Of a stretch of DNA of 31,655 nt, positions 11,787 through 22,523 are shown in pieces. The translations under genes and the position numbers were made by a program. Each line of letters begins with the position of its first letter. The first letter of the stretch is position 1. The notes under the pieces were generated by a model, which saw only the letters and a program-made list of their open reading frames with translations, did not search any database and had not been told where the DNA came from. Source of the DNA: a virus. Where the stretch lies: positions 1 to 31,655 of IMG/VR virus record IMGVR_UViG_3300005608_000016, one strand, 5' to 3'.

Positions 11787-12401
11787 TTATGCCACTAAAC
11801 TCCTGATAAGTTTGTTGAGTCCATCTATTGTCTGGAAAAAAGTATTAGATCCAGAACCAAATAATGCTGTAACATCAGCAGCTTCAACCACTTTAAAGTT
11901 TGCTGCATTCACCCCCACTTTTTGCATACAATTAATATTTACACTCCTTTCTGCAGCGATACCAACAGAATCATCCGCCTGTATACTCATTTCAGCGGTG
12001 TCCATATCAATGGCAGCATTTGAATGAATGTTTATAAACCCAGTGGTGTCACCATTACCTTCTGCAATAAGATCAATATCTCTTGCTACTATTCTTACTC
12101 TTCCTCTAGGAGCAAACAAAATTAAATCACCGTTTTCAGCATACGTCACACCAGCGATGCCATCTACTGGTTTTTCACCACAACGCACATTATAACATGC
12201 TGGTGCTGATACGTTAATAGATCCGTTGAGTGTTCCGGTGCATTGAAGTCCAATATATTGACTTCGTCTAAATCCAGGATTAGGAAAAATACGGCGTATC
12301 ATCACCGCTTGTTTATTATTTTGACTATCTACTTGTTCAAATGAAACCTCACCAAAGAGGTTACCAATTCTATTATAATCAGGACATTTTGCTGCACCCA
12401 T
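11787..12401 (-). CDS. Beta-helix needle/spike protein (gp5 C-terminal or VgrG tip-like)
   Basis: This 204-aa protein has an N-terminal region with VSFEQVDSQNN and RRIFPNPGFRRSQYIGLQC. The C-terminal half contains short repeating beta strands (GDLILFAPRGRVRIVARDID, then LIAEGNGD, INIHSNAAIDMDTAEMSIQA, SVGIAAERSVNINCMQKVGV) like the triple-stranded beta-helix of T4 gp5C and VgrG spikes. It lies immediately downstream of the OB-fold hub gene with a TAATG overlap, which makes co-assembly likely. The likely role is the membrane-piercing needle of the baseplate. This assignment rests on repeat pattern and synteny, not on a clear sequence match. Confidence 0.6.
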   Translation of the reverse strand: MGAAKCPDYNRIGNLFGEVSFEQVDSQNNKQAVMIRRIFPNPGFRRSQYIGLQCTGTLNGSINVSAPACYNVRCGEKPVDGIAGVTYAENGDLILFAPRGRVRIVARDIDLIAEGNGDTTGFINIHSNAAIDMDTAEMSIQADDSVGIAAERSVNINCMQKVGVNAANFKVVEAADVTALFGSGSNTFFQTIDGLNKLIRSLVA

Positions 12402-15400
12402 TATACTTTACCCACACAATCGATAACTTGCAGAGTTGGAGTTCCAAGTGGAACAACAAATCCAGAATCATTTACATCAATAAATCTCAGCACAGGTTTC
12501 AGATCAGCATTAAATCCAGTCTTAGTATTTATTCTGATTTCGGGGAGAGTTGTAAATCCGATACCTGGATTAGTGATTTTGACACCTATGATTGCACCAT
12601 TCTCGATGATCAATTCTCCTTCAGCACCCGGAATAATCAGTTCATCATCGGGATTATATCCAAATCCTCCGTTATCAATAGCAATACCACTCAATGTAGC
12701 AACTTTATCATCACCATCACCTTTAGAAGTTGGAGGTTCATTTGGATCTTCTGGTGTTCCTGCAGGACATCCAGGAGCAGTAAATGTCACACTATATTCA
12801 GGAATTTTACCCCATTTAGGATCATCTAATAAATCTCTCATTTTAGGGCCAACTCTTAGGAAAAACTTGTTTGTCAAGAAAAACCTTACATCTTGATCAG
12901 AAAATCCCTGTTCTTTTGCAAGTCGAAGATCAAGAAACGCTCCAAATTGATGCTTGATCCCAGTCTCATAAGCTTTTCCTTGAGTATAATCAAAGTTACT
13001 CATGTCCTTAATTTTCGGATTAGTCCCCTTGACTACACATCCTGGTATCATATCCTCAGTGAACTTTTCATCAATTAATATTTTTTGTTCACCGGGAAAA
13101 GTTATTTCGTCTCCATAATATGCAGTTATTGTGGTGCCTTTACTATAAGGGATGTCCCAATCATAATTGGCTCTATGGATAGTAGTTTGGCATCTATTAG
13201 CCCAAACCCTTCCTCCACCCCCCTTGTCTCCATAAGGGTATGCTTCATATCCATATCCACTATCATCCATTATAACATCCGTGACGCCTATTTCATCGTC
13301 ATCATCATCTTCGTCATCATCAAACTCATCATCAATTATATCATCATCTTCTGGATCATTTGGATCTTTATCATCATCTATTATTTCAATATCTTCTTCA
13401 TTAATTTCATCTTCAGGATCTGGTGGTGTTCCGGGTGGTGTTTCTGGCAGTATTGGTTCATCATAATCTACAATTTCAGATTCTTTATCAGTAATCACGA
13501 CTTTTACATATTTCCTTTTCTTTTTAATTTTTAATTTAATTTTATCTAATTTTTTAATACCCTTATTATCTTTTTTCTTTAATTTTTTAACTCTGATACT
13601 AACATAGAAATGTTCTTTCCCTTCTATATCAGTATTTCTAAATCCTTCACCACCACCTCCTTTTGCTCTTGCTTTAATTTTAAAGACTTTTTCTGTTTGT
13701 CCAGGTTTAAACTCAATAACTTCTTTTTTAAATTTAAAATCATCATTGAATAAAGCAGTTCCTCTATTTTTAAGAGTTTTTACTCTTATTCTTGATCTAA
13801 CATCAGTACGTCCAGATCTAATAATAGTTAATCTAGCGACTTCTCCTTCTTTTATCTTAACTTTTTTTTGTTTCCATCTATAAACAATTTTATTTTTATT
13901 TTTTACTTTTCCTAAAACAGGCCTGCCAATAGCACCTTTACCATTACCACAAGGATCCTCAAAAGAAACTAAGGGCGCTTTAACATATTGTCCAGGACTT
14001 ATAATATCAACACCAATTAATTCTCCAGCCAAGTTAATCACAGGATTACCAGTTGCTCCGTCACCATCACCACCAAAAAATACAACATTGGGAGGGCCGC
14101 AACTAATAGCATCAGTATTACATCCGCCATCAATGATGTTTTGCCAAATTATTCCCGAATCTATCTCATCAAGAGGATTATATTCAGTTCCATCATCCTT
14201 TGTAAATCTAGCTTCTATAGATTCCTGTCCCTTAATTGGATTTTTCTCTAAAGTAGTAGATATATTACCTACTGTGTTTGCCACGGTGGCAGTAACACCT
14301 CTTGCTTTTTCAAATATTCTATTAAAGTCTAAAGTTGGATTATTACTTGGTTTTGAACCTTGAAGAAAATCCCAGGTGCTAGAGTCGGGACAGATATTTT
14401 CTGCTTTACAAGTGAATACATCTAGAATGCTAGTCACAAAATCAAGCATATCTCCTGCTAGATCAATAATTGCCCCTACGGAATCGACGAATCCACCGAT
14501 TACACTAGCAAGATTACTTAATATACTACTGATAACTCCAGTAATATTTCCAAGAACATTTCCAATAATGCCACCAATAACATTCTCAACTAAACATTCG
14601 GCAGCATTCAAAATCTTATCAACAATAGTCTTGAGGATATTGGCAACCGTTTTCTCAAGATTTGCAAGAATTTTTGCAATCAAACAAGATATTGCGGTTA
14701 GTGCTTTATCCTGAGCTTCATTGGCAATATATCTCGCTGATAATGGAACTTTACCTATAATTACATTCGCAACAGTTGTAACTTTCCTAAGTATCCATTT
14801 TCTAACTTTTTGAACCAATGCTGCCATTATTCTTGCGATATCGCCCGCAGCATTTCCAATACTGATATCGAAGGAATCACCTCCAATTCCTACATTTAAT
14901 GATGCATTTGGTATGGTATTACTAACAAAATTTTGTGCATCTGATAAAAAATTCTGAGATGTAGCAAGGAAACTATCATCACCGATAATTCCAGTCTTCA
15001 GAGATTCAACATCTTGAATCATACTAGTGATAGCATCATTAACACCATCTACATTTACAGTATCACAAGCACTTTTAATATTTGGTAGTTTTGATTTGAA
15101 ATCTTGCTTTTTGTCCTCATCAGACGGTGATTGAGTACCAGGAAGTTCAGCAGTGTTTAATTTTCCTTCTAAAGTATGAGTAGTAGGAGTTTTTGAGTCT
15201 GGTAAAAATCCAGTTAACGCAACTTCACCCCTTCCTGATAATTCAGCATTTTCAATGAATTTAGCAACAGCATTAGGGATGACTCTTTCAATATAATATG
15301 CGTCACTGTTTGGATCTTTTGAAACATAAACGAATGTATTTTGTGGATATTTTATGATACCCAAATCCTGAGCACCCAATCCACTCGTAAGATGAAGGGG

Positions 15401-15625
15401 ATATGCAAGACGAAGTCTATTTTCGGGTTTGTCAGGAGGATCAATACCTAAAAGTCTGATCCTATAGCGCCGAGAAACTACGGTTGGCGGCTCATCTTCA
15501 AACTTTCCAGAGTATTGTGTCTCATTTGGTGTTTCGACACCAACAATCACCGCGGGAATATGAGTTGAATTCCATATTTCTTCGGCGATTAATTTATAAT
15601 TGTACTTATCGGAAAGTCCTGACAT
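12401..15625 (-). CDS. Baseplate hub/spike protein with gp5-like N-terminal OB fold (1074 aa)
   Basis: Residues about 15-120 resemble the OB domain of T4 gp5: RRYRIRLLGIDPPDKPENRL, then FVYVSKDPNSDAYYIERVIP. A long helical, hydrophobic region follows (about 230-400, many Ile/Leu/Asn). At about 495-560 is a Gly-rich module with SPGQYVKAPLVSF. At about 580-710 is a very Lys-rich Calx-beta-like domain (EGEVARLTIIRSG; IEFKPGQTEKVFKIKA; GKEHFYVSI). Next comes an Asp/Glu-rich linker (about 720-785), and a C-terminal region with Gly-rich modules (GGFGYNPDDELIIPG). No lysozyme motif was seen. It lies between CP12 and the needle gene, consistent with a central hub or spike. Confidence 0.7.
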   Translation of the reverse strand: MSGLSDKYNYKLIAEEIWNSTHIPAVIVGVETPNETQYSGKFEDEPPTVVSRRYRIRLLGIDPPDKPENRLRLAYPLHLTSGLGAQDLGIIKYPQNTFVYVSKDPNSDAYYIERVIPNAVAKFIENAELSGRGEVALTGFLPDSKTPTTHTLEGKLNTAELPGTQSPSDEDKKQDFKSKLPNIKSACDTVNVDGVNDAITSMIQDVESLKTGIIGDDSFLATSQNFLSDAQNFVSNTIPNASLNVGIGGDSFDISIGNAAGDIARIMAALVQKVRKWILRKVTTVANVIIGKVPLSARYIANEAQDKALTAISCLIAKILANLEKTVANILKTIVDKILNAAECLVENVIGGIIGNVLGNITGVISSILSNLASVIGGFVDSVGAIIDLAGDMLDFVTSILDVFTCKAENICPDSSTWDFLQGSKPSNNPTLDFNRIFEKARGVTATVANTVGNISTTLEKNPIKGQESIEARFTKDDGTEYNPLDEIDSGIIWQNIIDGGCNTDAISCGPPNVVFFGGDGDGATGNPVINLAGELIGVDIISPGQYVKAPLVSFEDPCGNGKGAIGRPVLGKVKNKNKIVYRWKQKKVKIKEGEVARLTIIRSGRTDVRSRIRVKTLKNRGTALFNDDFKFKKEVIEFKPGQTEKVFKIKARAKGGGGEGFRNTDIEGKEHFYVSIRVKKLKKKDNKGIKKLDKIKLKIKKKRKYVKVVITDKESEIVDYDEPILPETPPGTPPDPEDEINEEDIEIIDDDKDPNDPEDDDIIDDEFDDDEDDDDDEIGVTDVIMDDSGYGYEAYPYGDKGGGGRVWANRCQTTIHRANYDWDIPYSKGTTITAYYGDEITFPGEQKILIDEKFTEDMIPGCVVKGTNPKIKDMSNFDYTQGKAYETGIKHQFGAFLDLRLAKEQGFSDQDVRFFLTNKFFLRVGPKMRDLLDDPKWGKIPEYSVTFTAPGCPAGTPEDPNEPPTSKGDGDDKVATLSGIAIDNGGFGYNPDDELIIPGAEGELIIENGAIIGVKITNPGIGFTTLPEIRINTKTGFNADLKPVLRFIDVNDSGFVVPLGTPTLQVIDCVGKV
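13285..13405. repeat. Low-complexity Asp/Glu-coding tract
   Basis: Dense ATC/TCA repeats on the plus strand correspond to GAT/GAC/GAA codons on the minus strand, encoding the polyacidic linker of the 1074-aa hub protein. It is coding and in frame. Such tracts are prone to slippage and length change. Confidence 0.8.
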
Positions 15626-15630
15626 TTATA

Positions 15631-15858
15631 TCAATCTTCGTAAATTCTGCACTCATCTGCATCTGGTTCCATTTCACAAAAAAGTTCTAATGCAGTTGGA
15701 TCATGATGATCTCCTGCTTCAATTTCTGCTTTGTGATTCTCTACATAAACTTCAAGTTCATGCAGTTCTTCTTCGATGTGGCGGCGCTGTTGTGGAGACG
15801 TTGTAGGATCTTGGAGGATCTCTTTGTCTTTTTGGATGTGCTTTTCGACGCTTTCCAT
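15631..15858 (-). CDS. cp12: CP12-like Calvin-cycle regulator
   Basis: This 75-aa protein is helical at the N-terminus and ends DPTALELFC-EMEPDADEC-RIYED. That matches the C-terminal signature of CP12 (a Cys pair around E-x-P-x-x-x-E-C-R-x-Y-x-D), which clamps GAPDH with phosphoribulokinase and so inhibits the Calvin cycle. The C-terminal Cys pair is present; the N-terminal Cys pair of many host CP12s is absent, and HIEEELHELE stands where hosts have AWDxVEEL. Phage CP12 is known from cyanophages as an auxiliary metabolic gene. Here the gene overlaps the hub gene upstream (TAATG) and sits 5 nt before the OB-fold gene, inside the late structural operon. Confidence 0.85.
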   Translation of the reverse strand: MESVEKHIQKDKEILQDPTTSPQQRRHIEEELHELEVYVENHKAEIEAGDHHDPTALELFCEMEPDADECRIYED

Positions 15859-17141
15859 TACTTTTCTCCGTAAGAATCTCGTACTAAATTTAAACCAGTA
15901 AACGCCTGAGTTGGCGTACTATAATGACACAAATCCGCTATCATATATATACCACTATCTTTCGGACTTCCTGACTGACTCTTCTTTTGAGAAGTTTCAG
16001 CAAATTTACATAAGATAAGATCACCAGCATTCAATGAAAGATCTGCATCAATTACTATATTAAGTGATAAACCAAATTTTCGCCTATAATTCTGCAGTGA
16101 TTGTCTGGAAGTCGAAACAACATCAAAACTTGTATCATTAATATCTGCTAATCCTCCTCCTGGTATAATTTTTTGTCCAACATCTTTTGTTCTATGTAAA
16201 TCAAGAGTTGCTTTATTTTTATATTCATTACTTAATACTGGAGTATCTAATCCAGCGATTATACTACTTTTTTCATAATCAAATTTGTTAAGAGTTTGAT
16301 ATACTAACTTATCATTTAAAGGATTAAAAAGATCTAATTCAGATTTATTTGCTCCCTCTTCAAACTGCTTGAGCATATCAGTGATAAGAAGAAAACTTGA
16401 TTTAAGAATTTTTCCATTATAACCAGGACTAACACGACTATCTGCAAATCCTGTCTCTTCAAATTTCTTGATTTTCTTTCCAGTCGTATCAAACATCTTA
16501 TCAAGAGATTTAAAGTTATATCCCTTAGATGTTTCCCAAAATAAAAACCCAGCACTCTTTATTCCTTCGGGCACTGATACTTTTTGAACGTCCAAACACA
16601 TTTCAAAAGGATATCTCTTATCACCATTAAATTGAATATCATTCTCTGTGGTATCTGCAAATAAATCTTTTTCAGTTTTTAATGACTTTAGTGCTTCTCT
16701 TATGATGACATCACCCCTTCCAAGATAAGAATCCACCATTCTATTTTCTAAGAGAGTATTGTCATAAGCTTCTTTTGACACAACTCTTACAGAACAGGAT
16801 GACTGATTGACTCCCTTACCAGCAAACATTGTCTTAGCGAGTCGTAGATCATCATCTCCGGATAGATCAATTTGATTACCAAACTGATCCTCTAGTTTAA
16901 GTTTAAATTTTTCTGTCCCTTGAAGTTTTATTGATTCTAAGATTCCTACAGTACCCTTTGAACCATCCTTAGACTTTGTTGCAGTTCCAGTGTCAATAAT
17001 TGTCATATCAACCGTTATATAAGGACACAACACACTCTCACGATACTCTAGAACAGGAACGCCACCTCTGATATCTACAGAGTCTTTGTTCTCATTAGAG
17101 AATACCTCTAAAATTTTGTGATTAAGTACCTTTCCTTGCAT
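15858..17141 (-). CDS. Baseplate hub protein (gp27 / gpD-like, inferred)
   Basis: This 427-aa protein starts in a TAATG overlap with the 653-aa gene. The N-terminal part (VLEYRESVLCPYITVDMTII, then GTEKFKLKLED) and C-terminal part (LNAGDLILCKF, then SGIYMIADLCHYSTPTQAFT with a final LNLVRDSYG) follow the pattern of tail hub proteins of the gp27/gpD/gp44 type. In that pattern a G-D-x-I strand and a G-x-Y-x-I-x-x-x-x-H strand end in a charged L-x-R-D. Its position between the tape-measure-like genes and the OB-fold protein also fits. The length is close to T4 gp27 (391 aa). The assignment is moderate, based on pattern and order. Confidence 0.6.
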   Translation of the reverse strand: MQGKVLNHKILEVFSNENKDSVDIRGGVPVLEYRESVLCPYITVDMTIIDTGTATKSKDGSKGTVGILESIKLQGTEKFKLKLEDQFGNQIDLSGDDDLRLAKTMFAGKGVNQSSCSVRVVSKEAYDNTLLENRMVDSYLGRGDVIIREALKSLKTEKDLFADTTENDIQFNGDKRYPFEMCLDVQKVSVPEGIKSAGFLFWETSKGYNFKSLDKMFDTTGKKIKKFEETGFADSRVSPGYNGKILKSSFLLITDMLKQFEEGANKSELDLFNPLNDKLVYQTLNKFDYEKSSIIAGLDTPVLSNEYKNKATLDLHRTKDVGQKIIPGGGLADINDTSFDVVSTSRQSLQNYRRKFGLSLNIVIDADLSLNAGDLILCKFAETSQKKSQSGSPKDSGIYMIADLCHYSTPTQAFTGLNLVRDSYGEK

Positions 17142-19102
17142 TATCCTATTTCTACAGGTTGAATCGCAATAACAACTTCTCTAGATATCATCATTCCTTG
17201 ATTATCATATGTAGTGGATCTATCTAAACCACTAGTATTATTTAACTTACCAACAGTCATCCCTGGTTTGAGTATTGTGCCGTCAGGATATACAAATATA
17301 TCATCCGCACTTTTGTCCTTAGGAATTGTGGTTGAATCTGGTTTGTTTATAGGGGATTTAGGAGTGAAGTGTTCGGGAAACTCCAACTTTTCAAGTTCTA
17401 CATCACTATTAATTTGACGTTTTTCTATGGATTCTCCACTAAAAATTGAGATGTATTTTAATATTGCATTTGCCATCTCTCTTTTTTTCTGTCCAGTGCC
17501 AAAGATATCATCTGATGATTTAGAATCCCTTTCAAGTCTTTCAATTGCTTTCTTTCTTTTTTCTTCAGGAAGATTAATAATTTTTCCTGCAGCTAATTGA
17601 TGAATCCTATCGGGATCAATCATGCCAAGGTATCCAAAGAGTTCAAAATCCTCATTATATGGAAGGATGGAACTAATATACTTTCCTATAAATTTTGCAC
17701 CAACATCAATTCCCATCCCAACTGCAAATGAACCAAGATTTTTTAAGAAGTTTTTAGGATTAAGGAGTTGCTCCTTAATAACTTTACCTATGTCAAATCT
17801 GAAATCTAATCCTTTAGTTAACTTATCAAACCCACTTTTGAATGTTCCAGTTATATTTTCAAGTGAAAATCTTGATGGTTTTGTTGTTTGTATAGATCGT
17901 AATAAATCTTCAAAACCAGTTGACATTGGCACACCTTGACGAAGAAGATCTCCTTTTAATCTTGCCCTTGCAACTCGTTGACTGGGTGGTTTTTCTCCAC
18001 CTATAAGTTCATCACCACCCTGATATCTTACCTTAGCACTTTCTCCAGCTGCTTCGGTTAACGCAGGATCAACAAACTGTGGAATAGTAGGATCTTTTAT
18101 CTTCCCCTTTTTTACATTCTCCTGTGCTTTTCGTATAAATTGTTCAAGTCCGGTTTGTGTTCCTGGCGGGGCAACAGGCAGTTGAACCCCTTTTTTACTA
18201 GCGTCAAGAGCTTTGAAGGTTCTATCAAGTGCTTCTCGTGCTGCTTTATCAAGCTCTAGAGCTTGTATTTGTTCTGGTGTTAGAGGAACACCCGTACCAG
18301 AGGCACCAGGAGCACCAGGAGTACCTACTCCAGCACCAACGGGAGTTCCTGTGAGAGTTCTTGAAAGTGATCTTGAAAGTGATTTTAAAATATTTCGCGA
18401 TTGTGTTGGAGTAAGAACTGACGGACTTCTAACAGGTGTTCTAGAAAAAATCTTGGCGGGCTTCTTAGCGGGTGTCTTTACAGGTGCGGGTATTTTTACA
18501 GGTGTTCTTGCAGGTGTCTTAACAGGAGTTTTTTTTGCCTTTGTTGCTGGTGGTGTCGCTCCAGGTGTTGTTGGTTTTACAAATGGACGATATAAACTTG
18601 CGAGCCTATATCCAAGAACGAGTATGCCACTCATCACAGTTTCAAGTACATCACTTAATTCATTGTATGGGTTCATCCTAATAACAAAATTAGCGATATT
18701 ACCAAACGTGTCTTTAATCTGAGTTCCTAACTCAACAATATCATTAAAGATGGGAACTATTACATCATCAAAATATTTTTTAAATCGAATAGCAAGTTCT
18801 TTTACTTTTTCAATTACTTGTTTTGCAAAAACAGCGATCTTATCAAGATTTTTTACAATAACACCTAACAATGTAAAACCCGCAAAACGAATGACGGTAT
18901 CTAATATATCTTGGGATTTACCTATTACTTTTTTTTGAGTTCTTTTTAAACTGAATATTTTACTTGATTCAATTTTTTTCTCTCTTTCTTCTCTTTTTTC
19001 TTTAATATCTTTCTTCTTTTTATCACTAAATCTTTTACTTCTTATATCAAAATTTTTCTTATAAGTATCGACAACAGAAGTGAACTCAGTGAGTTTAATC
19101 AT
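17141..19102 (-). CDS. Tape-measure-like tail protein, paralogue of the 621-aa protein (653 aa)
   Basis: Residues 36-85 (KREEREKKIESSKIFSLKR, then SQDILDTVIRFAGFTLLGVI) align well with residues 131-180 of the upstream 621-aa protein, including a short hydrophobic segment. Residues about 85-165 look helical. Residues about 175-230 are a Thr-Pro-Ala-Lys repeat (KTPARTPVKIPAPVKTPAKK), resembling histone-H1-like tails. The rest is helix-rich, with a second hydrophobic part around residue 470, and the C-terminus reads EVVIAIQPVEIG. The ATG overlaps the upstream stop (ATGA). The location after the chaperone pair and the first paralogue suggests a tail-interior or hub role. No enzymatic motif was seen. 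Confidence 0.6.
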   Translation of the reverse strand: MIKLTEFTSVVDTYKKNFDIRSKRFSDKKKKDIKEKREEREKKIESSKIFSLKRTQKKVIGKSQDILDTVIRFAGFTLLGVIVKNLDKIAVFAKQVIEKVKELAIRFKKYFDDVIVPIFNDIVELGTQIKDTFGNIANFVIRMNPYNELSDVLETVMSGILVLGYRLASLYRPFVKPTTPGATPPATKAKKTPVKTPARTPVKIPAPVKTPAKKPAKIFSRTPVRSPSVLTPTQSRNILKSLSRSLSRTLTGTPVGAGVGTPGAPGASGTGVPLTPEQIQALELDKAAREALDRTFKALDASKKGVQLPVAPPGTQTGLEQFIRKAQENVKKGKIKDPTIPQFVDPALTEAAGESAKVRYQGGDELIGGEKPPSQRVARARLKGDLLRQGVPMSTGFEDLLRSIQTTKPSRFSLENITGTFKSGFDKLTKGLDFRFDIGKVIKEQLLNPKNFLKNLGSFAVGMGIDVGAKFIGKYISSILPYNEDFELFGYLGMIDPDRIHQLAAGKIINLPEEKRKKAIERLERDSKSSDDIFGTGQKKREMANAILKYISIFSGESIEKRQINSDVELEKLEFPEHFTPKSPINKPDSTTIPKDKSADDIFVYPDGTILKPGMTVGKLNNTSGLDRSTTYDNQGMMISREVVIAIQPVEIG

Positions 19103-20964
19103 GATACTAAGTCCTCAATACCAAGTGCTTTACCAACCAAACCTCTCATTTGAACACCAGATGAAACTCGGAAATCTGGGATTTCATTACTAGTTTGTGT
19201 TGTTGTAGATTGTTTTGCTTGCTGCTTAATAGGAGGCAAAACAATCATTTTAGTTGAAGTGGGAGCGTATGGCGTATCAACTCCAAATAATTGTCTAATA
19301 GGTTTAAAAATAAAATCAAGATCAAATCCATCAAAGCGATCATCTACTGGTTTTCCAGTTCCACTTGGCAAACCTGGTGGTGGTAAAACAGGTGGTGGAG
19401 TAGGGGACATTTTCATCCCACTAGACTTATTATACAAGTCTTTTATAAGATCTGCAGACTTACCACCTTGCCCATAAAAACTAGTTCCTTGAATATCTCT
19501 TCCTTTATGATCAGGGCCAAATAAGTTAGGAAATGAAGCAAACTCAGGTGCTAATCTGTCGATAACTTCATCACTCATACCTTCAGACTTAAGCATTTCA
19601 GGAGTCACTCCTCTCATTCTTCTAATTCTTCTTAGTATCAATTCGTCTTGAAGTTCTGGTGTAAATTTAGTTGTGTTTAAATCAAGTCCAGCTCTCTCTG
19701 CTTCTTCTCTTAATACAACTGGCATAAATTGGTATCTTCCAGTAGCAGTTGAATTATATTCATCCTTTGCATAAACACTTTGTCCTTTATACATACCAGT
19801 TTCTTGCATATTAAGGACTTGATTGATAGTCATTTTTCCCATAGTAAGTTCTGGAATATTTCTACCTCCATAAAGAGTTCCATATCCCTTAGTCCCCTCT
19901 GCACCGGATATGGCATCAAGCATTCTTCTTTCTTCGGGACTTATATAAAATCCACTGCCTCTAGATCCGGGAAGTAATAGATTTTGGGGGATAGTTCCTG
20001 CATTTGCTGGTTGAGTTCCAGTAATAATATTAAAACTTTCACCTATTAACTCAGGTATAAAATCTGTAGTAAAACTAATCATATTATCGTCTTTGAATGA
20101 TCCACCAAATAATCCACCAAAAGGTTCCGTTTGAAGAAGAGTGCCGCCTGTTTCCTCTTGTCCTTGACGACGTTCCTCCTCTACTTCTCTTTCTAAATCT
20201 TTTTCTTCCTGTGTTTTAAATAAATCTCCAAGGAAAGGAGCTTTTTTCAAAAGTTCTCTAAAATCTGCTGTAAATTTTTTAACTTCATTTACAGTATTTG
20301 TAAACCAATCAATAACTCCCTGAATTTTTTCTCTTGCTTCTTTTAATCTCCCAGGAATGCTTCTTATAAAATTTTGTACGTTTTCTATAAACTCTTTGTT
20401 TTTAGGATTACGAAGAAAGTCAGTAACAAATTTTACTATCTGTCCTAATACTGTAAACGCTAAGAATTTTATTATTGAATCAAAGATACTCTGTGATTTT
20501 TTGATCACTTTATCTACGGTTCTGCCAATAGTAAATATTTTTCCTGCTTCAATTCTTTTTTCTCTTTCCTTTCTTTTCTCTTCAGTTTCAATTTTCTCTT
20601 CATAATCTTGCCTTTCCTTTTCTAAAGCATTGTCAGCATTAATGACTGCAATTAGTTCATTTAACTTTTCAATTATTTCTTCATTTTCACTTTCATCTTT
20701 TGGTATTAATTTATCGGGTTCAACTTTTATAACAACAGGTTCAAGAGTTTGAGATTTTATAAGATTTGGTTTTACCTGTGGTGCAGTAAATTTTTGCCCC
20801 ACTAAAGGATTTTGAAACTTTTTTGTAGATAATAATTTATTAGGATTAATTTTCTTATCTTTATCTTCTTCACGAATAGACTCTAATAAATCATCAAGAG
20901 CCTGTCCTCCTTTAGAGTCATCATCTTCTTCTCTGATTGACTTTAAAAGATCGTCTAGATTCAT
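19099..20964 (-). CDS. Tape-measure-like protein with lysozyme-like domain (621 aa)
   Basis: The N-terminus carries a tandem repeat (LDDLLKSIREED at 3-14, LDDLLESIREED at 23-34). Residues 95-180 are charged helix followed by a hydrophobic stretch (FDSIIKFLAFTVLGQIVKFV) shared with the 653-aa protein. At about residues 345-500 is a muramidase or lytic-transglycosylase-like domain: AISGAEGTKGYGTLYGG, then STATGRYQFMP, then EFASFPNLFG. These recall the SEGT, GAGRYQLL and WASLPG motifs of lambda R, so the Glu in GAEGT is the likely catalytic acid. It is the first large gene after the gp26/gp51 chaperone pair, the usual place of the tape measure gene. It probably helps the tail tip cross peptidoglycan. 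Confidence 0.65.
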   Translation of the reverse strand: MNLDDLLKSIREEDDDSKGGQALDDLLESIREEDKDKKINPNKLLSTKKFQNPLVGQKFTAPQVKPNLIKSQTLEPVVIKVEPDKLIPKDESENEEIIEKLNELIAVINADNALEKERQDYEEKIETEEKRKEREKRIEAGKIFTIGRTVDKVIKKSQSIFDSIIKFLAFTVLGQIVKFVTDFLRNPKNKEFIENVQNFIRSIPGRLKEAREKIQGVIDWFTNTVNEVKKFTADFRELLKKAPFLGDLFKTQEEKDLEREVEEERRQGQEETGGTLLQTEPFGGLFGGSFKDDNMISFTTDFIPELIGESFNIITGTQPANAGTIPQNLLLPGSRGSGFYISPEERRMLDAISGAEGTKGYGTLYGGRNIPELTMGKMTINQVLNMQETGMYKGQSVYAKDEYNSTATGRYQFMPVVLREEAERAGLDLNTTKFTPELQDELILRRIRRMRGVTPEMLKSEGMSDEVIDRLAPEFASFPNLFGPDHKGRDIQGTSFYGQGGKSADLIKDLYNKSSGMKMSPTPPPVLPPPGLPSGTGKPVDDRFDGFDLDFIFKPIRQLFGVDTPYAPTSTKMIVLPPIKQQAKQSTTTQTSNEIPDFRVSSGVQMRGLVGKALGIEDLVS

Positions 20965-21131
20965 TGCCCCTGCTGCTGTTGCATCTTAAGTTTCTCTTCC
21001 TCTAAATGTGATCTCAGAAGTTCGACATATACGTCTCTCTCCCAAGGTATCATATTTTCAATCTCTGTTAATGAGTATTTATGAAACTGAATCAAAGAAA
21101 AATTTAACTTATAGTAACTCTCCAAATTCAT
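20961..21131 (-). CDS. 51: gp51-like tail assembly chaperone ORF (56 aa), probably made as a gp26 fusion
   Basis: This ORF starts MNLESYYKLNFSLIQFHKYS and continues with LTEIENMIPWERDVYVELL before a Gln-rich end. The Y-Y-K, H-K-Y-S-L-T-E-I-E and P-W-E-R-D pattern matches the small ORFs that follow gp26-like genes in T4-like phages and serve as hub or tail assembly factors. Upstream of its ATG the frame stays open (RVALSH) back to a slippery T_TTT_TTC at 21149-21155 in gp26. A -1 shift there gives a 300-aa gp26-gp51 fusion spanning 20961-21862. The stop overlaps the next ATG (ATGA). The separate ATG has no ribosome binding site and lies in a hairpin loop. Confidence 0.7.
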   Translation of the reverse strand: MNLESYYKLNFSLIQFHKYSLTEIENMIPWERDVYVELLRSHLEEEKLKMQQQQGQ

Positions 21132-21155
21132 ATGGGAGAGTGCTACGCGAAAAAA
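21117..21155 (-). promoter_or_regulatory. Probable -1 programmed ribosomal frameshift signal
   Basis: On the minus strand the heptamer T_TTT_TTC (21155-21149) is in the correct gp26 frame for simultaneous P- and A-site slippage. A 7-nt spacer follows, then a perfect 7-bp hairpin, ACTCTCC (21141-21135) pairing with GGAGAGT (21123-21117), with an 11-nt loop. The gp26 stop TAG (21145-21143) lies in the spacer, and the -1 frame is open into the gp51-like ORF. This is the lambda G/GT arrangement. Confidence 0.75.
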
Positions 21156-21862
21156 CTTGCCAGTCCCTCCAAAACGACTTTACTACTTTTCTTTGTTTTG
21201 GGATTCAATACTTCGACTTCATGTCTCAATTTAGGCATCGTCGTAAAGAAAGACTCAATGTCTTTGAACTGAGATGAATTCATTTGCTCTAAAAATTCTG
21301 TTACTTCTTTTTTAGTGAAGTCATCAGAAGTCCATGCTTCTTCTTTTGAATATACTTTATCTATACATGATGCAATCAGATCAAATGATTGATCTACCTG
21401 ATTGTCACCATTAAAACTGAAGTTACTTTTCACAAACTGATCTAATGAAGGATACCTCATCTCCATCATTAACTTATCATCTATCTTGATTTGTTTATTG
21501 TGATCTTTATCCTTTACTACTTCAATTTCATCAATACTAATCTGCACTTCAGCGTATGTTTCTCCATCATCAGGACAGAGAACACTTACCTCAATATCTT
21601 CACCAACAGACTTACCACGAATATTAAGGAACAAATATTCAATATCAAATGTAGGAAGAGTTTCTACTTTGACACCGCGTGTCTGAATGCAGTCTTTTAA
21701 TACTGCCTTGATTGCATTGGTGATTTCCTTTGAGTCATCACTTTCAAGTGCAAGAACTAATAACTTCTCTTCTTTTACAAGAAAGGGACGATATTTAATT
21801 GTTTTTCCAGTCGAAGGCAATTCCAACTCATAAGTTGGTGTTGAAATTTTTGGTAAAGGCAT
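21143..21862 (-). CDS. 26: Baseplate hub assembly / tail chaperone gp26-like
   Basis: This 239-aa protein has the T4 gp26-type opening, with YELELPSTGKTIKYRPFLVK followed by EEKLLVLALESDD. This family of small T4-type proteins assists baseplate hub assembly and corresponds by position to tail assembly chaperones of other phages. It ends GLASFFA-stop, and the last Phe codons form a slippery heptamer (21149-21155) followed by a hairpin, so a fraction of ribosomes should produce a gp26-gp51 fusion. A late-like AATAAATA (21883-21890) lies about 20 nt before the ATG, making this the first gene of the roughly 13-kb late operon. Confidence 0.8.
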   Translation of the reverse strand: MPLPKISTPTYELELPSTGKTIKYRPFLVKEEKLLVLALESDDSKEITNAIKAVLKDCIQTRGVKVETLPTFDIEYLFLNIRGKSVGEDIEVSVLCPDDGETYAEVQISIDEIEVVKDKDHNKQIKIDDKLMMEMRYPSLDQFVKSNFSFNGDNQVDQSFDLIASCIDKVYSKEEAWTSDDFTKKEVTEFLEQMNSSQFKDIESFFTTMPKLRHEVEVLNPKTKKSSKVVLEGLASFFA

Positions 21863-21890: not shown

Positions 21891-22523
21891 CTAGTTGTTC
21901 TTACTTCTTAAGACATAGCGTGAGAAGTTAAAGTTAACTCTGCATAATAAAAGTTCAGATGCATCATAGCTTACATCCATCTGATCAATAGAGATTGGAT
22001 ATGCATTAAGGAATTTATACTCTAGATTTCTTCCCTCATAATCTCTCTCAAACTTTCTTATGAAGATATCAGTCTTATATTCGTTAGGGAAGTTTACCCT
22101 GTAACTATAATTTTCCTTTTCCGCTTCTGATAATCCACTTTCATTAACAATAAACGCAATCCAGTTCTCAAAGAAATAAATTAGATCATATTCTTTATCA
22201 ACATAGAAAGTGAAGGAAGCAGTAGGGTTATACTGTCTCCTGTATGCATGTCTTTCGGTTACACCTGTAAAATCATTATCTAAAGTATGAGTTGCTAATG
22301 AAGTTCCTGGCAATGCAGCATCTCTACATGATAATGTTAATTTTTCTCCTAAGGTTCCGGGAGAATATCCATTACCAAGTTTTAATATGCTTCTACTATA
22401 AATCCAGGATCTAACATCAGATGGAGGATTAAAGTGACACTCGTAAGTAGATGTAAGAGCAGGATTTAAAATTGAAGATTTTAATTTATCAACTGTTTTT
22501 GCCTTTGGTTTTGGCGTTGCCAT
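21891..22523 (-). CDS. Tail tube / baseplate-tube junction protein (gp19/gp54-like)
   Basis: This 210-aa protein matches the pattern of T4-type tube proteins. LSCRDAALPGTSLATHTL corresponds to the T4 gp19 stretch around CKATALPAG. A YNPTASFTFYVDKEYDLIYF strand follows, then a FFENWIAFI segment, YPISIDQMDVSYDASE, and a final VNFNFSRYVLR strand. Tube-like genes typically lie upstream of the tail chaperones, as here. Whether this is the major tube subunit, a gp54-like junction protein or another tube paralogue cannot be decided, because the main sheath/tube genes are outside the window. No clear late octamer was seen upstream. It is divergently transcribed from gp4, with start codons about 30 bp apart. 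Confidence 0.75.
   Translation of the reverse strand: MATPKPKAKTVDKLKSSILNPALTSTYECHFNPPSDVRSWIYSRSILKLGNGYSPGTLGEKLTLSCRDAALPGTSLATHTLDNDFTGVTERHAYRRQYNPTASFTFYVDKEYDLIYFFENWIAFIVNESGLSEAEKENYSYRVNFPNEYKTDIFIRKFERDYEGRNLEYKFLNAYPISIDQMDVSYDASELLLCRVNFNFSRYVLRSKNN

Follow-up and report, generated by a model that had tools for sequence, protein, structure and literature searches.

A predicted programmed -1 ribosomal frameshift joins gp26 to the C-terminal domain annotated as gp51 in T4-like cyanophages

Introduction

Where is the rest of cyanophage gp51? A comparison of 26 T4-like genomes published in 2010 reported that the gp51 proteins of cyanophages and marine vibriophages seem to be missing their N-terminal ~200 residues, and that Aeh1 seems to have no gp51 (PMC3037559). 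The gp51 of T4 is essential and required for tail assembly, yet it is absent from the particle and its function is unknown (PMC3004832). Here we analysed the junction of gp26 and gp51 in a T4-like cyanophage contig of 31,655 nucleotides (IMG/VR virus record IMGVR_UViG_3300005608_000016, hereafter the window) and in its relatives. A sequence-only reading of the window had proposed that a programmed -1 frameshift at the end of gp26 leads straight into a short gp51-like open reading frame.

Results

Organization of the gp26-gp51 locus

All features of the locus lie on the minus strand, and are as follows.

21891 to 22523, minus strand: gene of the tail tube family (phrog_45 tail tube, E 2.2e-37), the immediate upstream neighbor of gp26
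21143 to 21862, minus strand: gp26, the zero-frame product of 239 aa, proposed from homology as a short tail assembly chaperone (G-like, or TAC-N)
21165 to 21170, minus strand: Shine-Dalgarno-like element GGAGGG, preceding the heptamer by 9 nt, a possible frameshift stimulator judged from Glu/Gly codon bias
21149 to 21155, minus strand: slippery heptamer TTTTTTC in the phase T_TTT_TTC, identified from conservation among relatives
21148 to 21142, minus strand: spacer GCGTAGC, 7 nt between heptamer and stem, from the sequence
21143 to 21145, minus strand: gp26 stop codon TAG within the spacer, from the sequence
21117 to 21141, minus strand: downstream hairpin with a 7-bp stem and an 11-nt loop, probably stimulatory, from minimum free energy (MFE) and shuffle z
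21141 to 21135 and 21123 to 21117, minus strand: stem arms ACTCTCC and GGAGAGT, from the sequence
21134 to 21124, minus strand: hairpin loop CATATGAATTT, 11 nt, from the sequence
20961 to 21149, minus strand: -1 frame extension of 62 codons plus stop (RVALSHMNLE...QGQ), from the open frame and phrog_634
21131 to 20961, minus strand: 56-aa ORF called gp51 in relatives, lying within the -1 extension
21129 to 21131, minus strand: internal ATG, the start for a separate gp51 here but probably not the main start, as judged from its place in the loop and the lack of a Shine-Dalgarno sequence
19099 to 20964, minus strand: next gene, 621 aa, a candidate tape measure protein from the position of tape-measure-like genes in relatives

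The layout first proposed for the junction proved correct in all its elements: the heptamer at 21155-21149 is in the exact phase for -1 slippage, the 7-nt spacer at 21148-21142 holds the stop codon of gp26, and RVALSH in the open -1 frame leads into the 56-aa ORF, giving a predicted fusion of 238 + 62 = 300 aa. The stop of the -1 ORF and the ATG of the 621-aa gene share the tetranucleotide ATGA (20961-20964). Overlaps of 1 to 20 nt between the two are common among relatives, so that translation by ribosomes that have shifted may be coupled to that of the following gene.

The tape measure assignment comes from two relatives, in which the gene at the downstream position has weak matches to tape-measure PHROGs (E 1.6e-6 in a KVP40-like phage and 1.8e-5 in phiM12); the window's own downstream gene has no such match. 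This gene and its neighbor at 17141-19102 share a similar N-terminal stretch (IFTIGRTVDKVIKKSQSI and IFSLKRTQKKVIGKSQDI, respectively), and both products match phrog_35029; they are possibly paralogous tape-measure or hub proteins. Elsewhere in the window, the gp5-like hub/lysozyme protein (12401-15625) has a weak Calx-beta-like region below the Pfam cut-off and a long acidic Asp/Glu stretch, and the 75-aa protein at 15631-15858 is covered along its whole length by a match to phrog_627 (E 4.7e-41), a family without assigned function.

Homology of T4 gp51 spans the whole predicted fusion

Profile searches revealed that the window gp26 matches phrog_150 baseplate hub (E 2.9e-78) and Pfam PF12322 T4_baseplate (E 5.1e-74), and that the 56-aa ORF matches phrog_634 (E 9.6e-26). 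T4 gp26 aligns with the zero-frame product only (hhalign E 1.8e-16), whereas T4 gp51 aligns with fusion columns 22 to 284, unbroken across the junction (hhalign E 2.1e-10). In agreement with this, T4 gp51 matches both phrog_150 (13-280) and phrog_634. In T4, the gp26 gene is on the strand opposite to gp51 and has no slippery heptamer (GAG TTC TTT GAG). With T4 gp51 homology extending over the whole fusion, the cyanophage "gp51" would amount only to the C-terminal domain of a long chaperone of the gp51 type. What the sequence-only reading called a gp51-like ORF is not a whole gp51. The seemingly missing part of gp51 would then be gp26 itself, joined by frameshifting, which would explain the shortened or absent gp51 noted before (PMC3037559).

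An AlphaFold2 model of gp26 alone (pLDDT 86) matches models of viral baseplate hub proteins. Against the PDB, neither a sequence search with the gp26 profile nor a Foldseek search with the model gave a real or significant match, the HK97 tail assembly chaperone 2ob9 being among the non-significant Foldseek matches (E about 1, probability 0.25). Homology of PF12322 family proteins to lambda G was not detected. From the alignments to T4 and by analogy, the short and long products would form a pair of tail assembly chaperones.

The slippery heptamer is conserved beyond the need of the protein

We collected 262 loci from IMG/VR scans, named GenBank phages and the window, 260 of which extend beyond the gp26 stop; thinning to below 90% identity left 147 cyanophage-type representatives. 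The heptamer T_TTT_TT(C/T) is found 7-13 nt before the gp26 stop in 258 of the 260 loci, including 80/80 of the first relative set. All 147 representatives have TTTTTTC, followed by G in 146, whereas T_TTT_TTY encodes none of the 169 Phe-Phe pairs found elsewhere in these genes. The seven heptamer columns, three of them degenerate wobble positions, all have zero entropy, compared to mostly 1.2-1.8 bits at the flanking wobble positions. The heptamer is thus conserved beyond what the amino acids require. The window alone would not reveal this, because among the 9,413 codons of its genes there are 66 in-frame heptamers of the form X_XXY_YYZ, three of them TTTTTTC; a chance origin, not significantly contradicted by one window, is rejected on the overwhelming agreement of the relatives (258/260).

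Both the heptamer and the open -1 frame, whose conservation in homologues the sequence-only reading had put forward as a check, are kept throughout Kyanoviridae and in distant relatives. The same signal is present in Sinorhizobium phage phiM12, Pseudomonas phage pf16, Stenotrophomonas phage BUCT608, Aeromonas phage PX29, Vibrio phage ValKK3 (KVP40-like), Rhizobium phage LG08 and Agrobacterium phage Atu_ph07, and Pseudoalteromonas phage XG4 has the variant T_TTT_TTA. The two exceptions among the 260 loci, L087 and L088, resemble or are Ackermannviridae. Together with L265 and L268, likewise Ackermannviridae or similar, they have an open -1 frame after gp26 without the canonical heptamer, and in the Salmonella phages among these four the frame is homologous to the C-terminal domain.

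The -1 frame is coding

All 256 loci not cut by the contig end have a -1 frame that continues without interruption for at least 164 nt beyond the gp26 stop. Over connector codons 2-6 of the 147 representatives, entropy in the -1 frame is 0.74, 0.53 and 1.45 bits at codon positions 1, 2 and 3, respectively; the highest variability at the -1-frame wobble position is a coding-type pattern. No stop codon and no indel of a length other than a multiple of three was seen in the connector among relatives. This pattern indicates that the -1 frame is genuinely coding and is selected at the protein level. In the GenBank/RefSeq records of P-SSM2, S-SSM5 and Bellamy gp51 is a separate gene, and S-CAM4, S-CAM1 and S-MbCM7 (loci L094, L266 and L267) have no annotated gp51 feature, with the C-terminal domain intact in the -1 frame.

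A downstream RNA structure and an upstream Shine-Dalgarno-like element

The 47 nt following the heptamer were folded and compared with codon shuffles that preserve the -1 protein. The window hairpin has an MFE of -8.2 kcal/mol and a z of -3.46. The mean z over the 147 representatives is -2.58, with 64% below -2 and about 18%, a minority without a stable hairpin, above -1; four controls within gp26 and one within the C-terminal domain gave -0.19 to -0.66. The perfect 7-bp stem with an 11-nt loop claimed for the window is present and such a structure is supported as a class, but its exact pairing register varies between clades, and a single universal hairpin is rejected. Across the wider clade of the window, both sides have changed at 5/5 pairs of an inner 5-bp helix, with 35 two-sided change cells compared to 9.5 in shuffles; the window itself uses another, longer stem. 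Within the S-CAM4 group, an Ala codon GCC always occurs together with CTA GAG (10/10), and GCA with TTG, CTG or ATG preceding GAA or GAG, corresponding to two alternative stems built by mostly synonymous choices. Altogether, these comparisons indicate that the downstream RNA structure is conserved beyond the protein sequence, and the hairpin probably stimulates shifting.

Upstream of the heptamer, a GAGG, AGGG or AAGG element that the sequence-only reading had overlooked is present in 116/147 representatives and missing in 31/147. The Glu codon at this element is GAG in 80 and GAA in 28 cases (n=108), compared to 30% GAG in gene bodies, which corresponds to a GAG/GAA odds ratio of 6.7 among related sequences. 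Where Glu is encoded by GAA, the Gly codon is GGG in 16/28, as if compensating. The mean hairpin z is -3.60 in the 31 representatives without the element, compared to -2.31 in those with it. The codon bias makes the Shine-Dalgarno-like element a possible frameshift stimulator. As the sequences are related and neither the Fisher nor the shuffle P-values are corrected for phylogeny, the figures on both stimulatory elements are descriptive.

Alternative explanations of the junction

According to the current annotation, gp51 is a small gene of its own, translated from the internal ATG by initiation or reinitiation, and the heptamer merely encodes two Phe residues. The short distance from the gp26 stop to the ATG, which starts 11 nt beyond it in the window, agrees with this model, as do the annotated gp51 starts overlapping the gp26 stop in the distant relatives PX29 and ValKK3. 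The window's ATG itself, however, sits in the hairpin loop (21131-21129), with no Shine-Dalgarno sequence in the preceding 20 nt, as already noted from the sequence. Among the 147 representatives, the internal ATG is present in 73 and absent in 74, which excludes both separate initiation as the general mechanism and a free gp51 from this Met as the general product. In 56 of them, codons 1-20 contain a single ATG, codon 19, which already belongs to the conserved domain; eight have no ATG in this stretch, and five of the eight lack GTG and TTG as well. C-terminal domains are conserved even where the junction has no start codon nearby. Where the ATG does exist, a Shine-Dalgarno sequence of at least 4 nt precedes it in 16%, compared to 42% for gp26 starts. 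A separate gp51 would also leave unexplained both the T_TTT_TTC in 147/147 against 0/169 elsewhere and the protein-level selection on the -1 frame upstream of the ATG. We therefore reject internal initiation as the general mechanism, and regard the separate-gene model as very improbable.

The frames could also be joined by RNA polymerase slipping on the T run, a reading slightly less probable still. The site is indeed a run of six, sometimes seven, T; but six T are short for transcriptional slippage, and the run is held in the exact ribosomal phase in 147/147 representatives. This strict phase and an RNA structure conserved beyond the protein fit a ribosomal signal, and transcriptional slippage is rejected on the short run and the phase. 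Least probable of all, to the point of being hardly credible, is that the junction goes untranslated, and that the open frame and hairpin are by-products of overlapping constraint or of a recent gene fission. With only 6 connector codons before the window's ATG, openness in one genome would be unremarkable. Against this stand an open frame in every readable locus across several phage families, the codon-like variability of the connector, and the conservation of C-terminal domains that have no nearby start codon.

Discussion

We consider it very likely that a programmed -1 ribosomal frameshift makes two proteins, a short and a long chaperone, from one gene. The argument is built on sequence comparison: the signal and its conservation, the selected open -1 frame, an internal start missing in half of the representatives, and the homology between the fusion and T4 gp51. 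From these we infer slippage in infected cells and its efficiency, a role for each stimulatory element, and the chaperone function. In the proposed mechanism, most ribosomes would read gp26 through to the TAG and release the short 239-aa chaperone. A fraction would pause at T_TTT_TTC, helped by the downstream hairpin and, in most lineages, by pairing of the upstream GAGGG/AAGGG with 16S rRNA. Both Phe tRNAs would then re-pair on UUU UUU and reading would continue in the -1 frame, yielding the 300-aa protein, whose additional C-terminal domain is the one annotated as "gp51". If the pair works like lambda gpG/gpGT, its two members would coat the tape measure and bring in tail tube subunits.

If this is true, the annotated Kyanoviridae genomes have a wrong gene model here, either split or without gp51. 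Although the trick is known from other phages, annotation would hide its use in T4-like viruses of marine cyanobacteria. T4 gp51 (PMC3004832) would in turn gain a concrete, testable role, in an abundant group of marine viruses. We further lean towards frameshifting being ancestral in the T4 supergroup, with a three-part signal of Shine-Dalgarno-like element, U_UUU_UUC and hairpin whose parts trade off between clades, and with the two-gene form of T4 arising by later loss of the signal. Such an ancestry would revise the published view, as conveyed by citing papers, that something other than frameshifting serves this purpose in T4-like phages. Within the open literature searched, the cyanophage frameshift site, its hairpin and its Shine-Dalgarno-like element are undescribed; Vladimirov, Gautam and Davidson 2022 may cover part of this.

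Comparison with known systems

This kind of system is already known from lambda gpG/gpGT. Xu, Hendrix and Duda reportedly described in 2004 a conserved -1 frameshift in such tail assembly genes. In lambda, as predicted here, a short chaperone is accompanied by a -1 fused long form, the locus lies between the tail tube gene and the tape measure gene (the latter a candidate here), and a slippery heptamer is found near the end of the first frame. They differ in the heptamer, T_TTT_TTC here and G_GGA_AAG in lambda, and in the conserved hairpin, the upstream Shine-Dalgarno-like element and the PF12322 family seen here. The three-part layout resembles that of E. coli dnaX, where an upstream Shine-Dalgarno sequence, an A_AAA_AAG heptamer and a downstream hairpin are used; the dnaX shift, however, leads to a shorter protein.

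T4 gp26 is homologous to the short form and T4 gp51, end to end, to the predicted fusion. The two T4 forms nevertheless come from two genes on opposite strands without a slippery heptamer, whereas a single locus with a frameshift would serve here. T4 gp26 and gp51 have been assigned as tail assembly chaperones by Vladimirov, Gautam and Davidson 2022, as relayed in PMC10885494 and PMC12846349. Citing the same work, PMC10885494 states that some T4-like phages carry short and fused chaperone genes instead of frameshifting, and PMC12846349 mentions poly-T slippery sequences in T4-like TAC-N genes. The latter source describes a TAC-N/TAC-NC frameshift in Vandenendeviridae/Andersonviridae, in Pseudomonas phage Adele; its section on this frameshift analyzes neither a hairpin nor a Shine-Dalgarno element. 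Adele has the same organization, with the C-terminal fragment mis-annotated as a separate gene, an invariant poly-T slippery motif and no stops in the -1 frame, but its motif is GTTTTT and the phage families are different from those described here.
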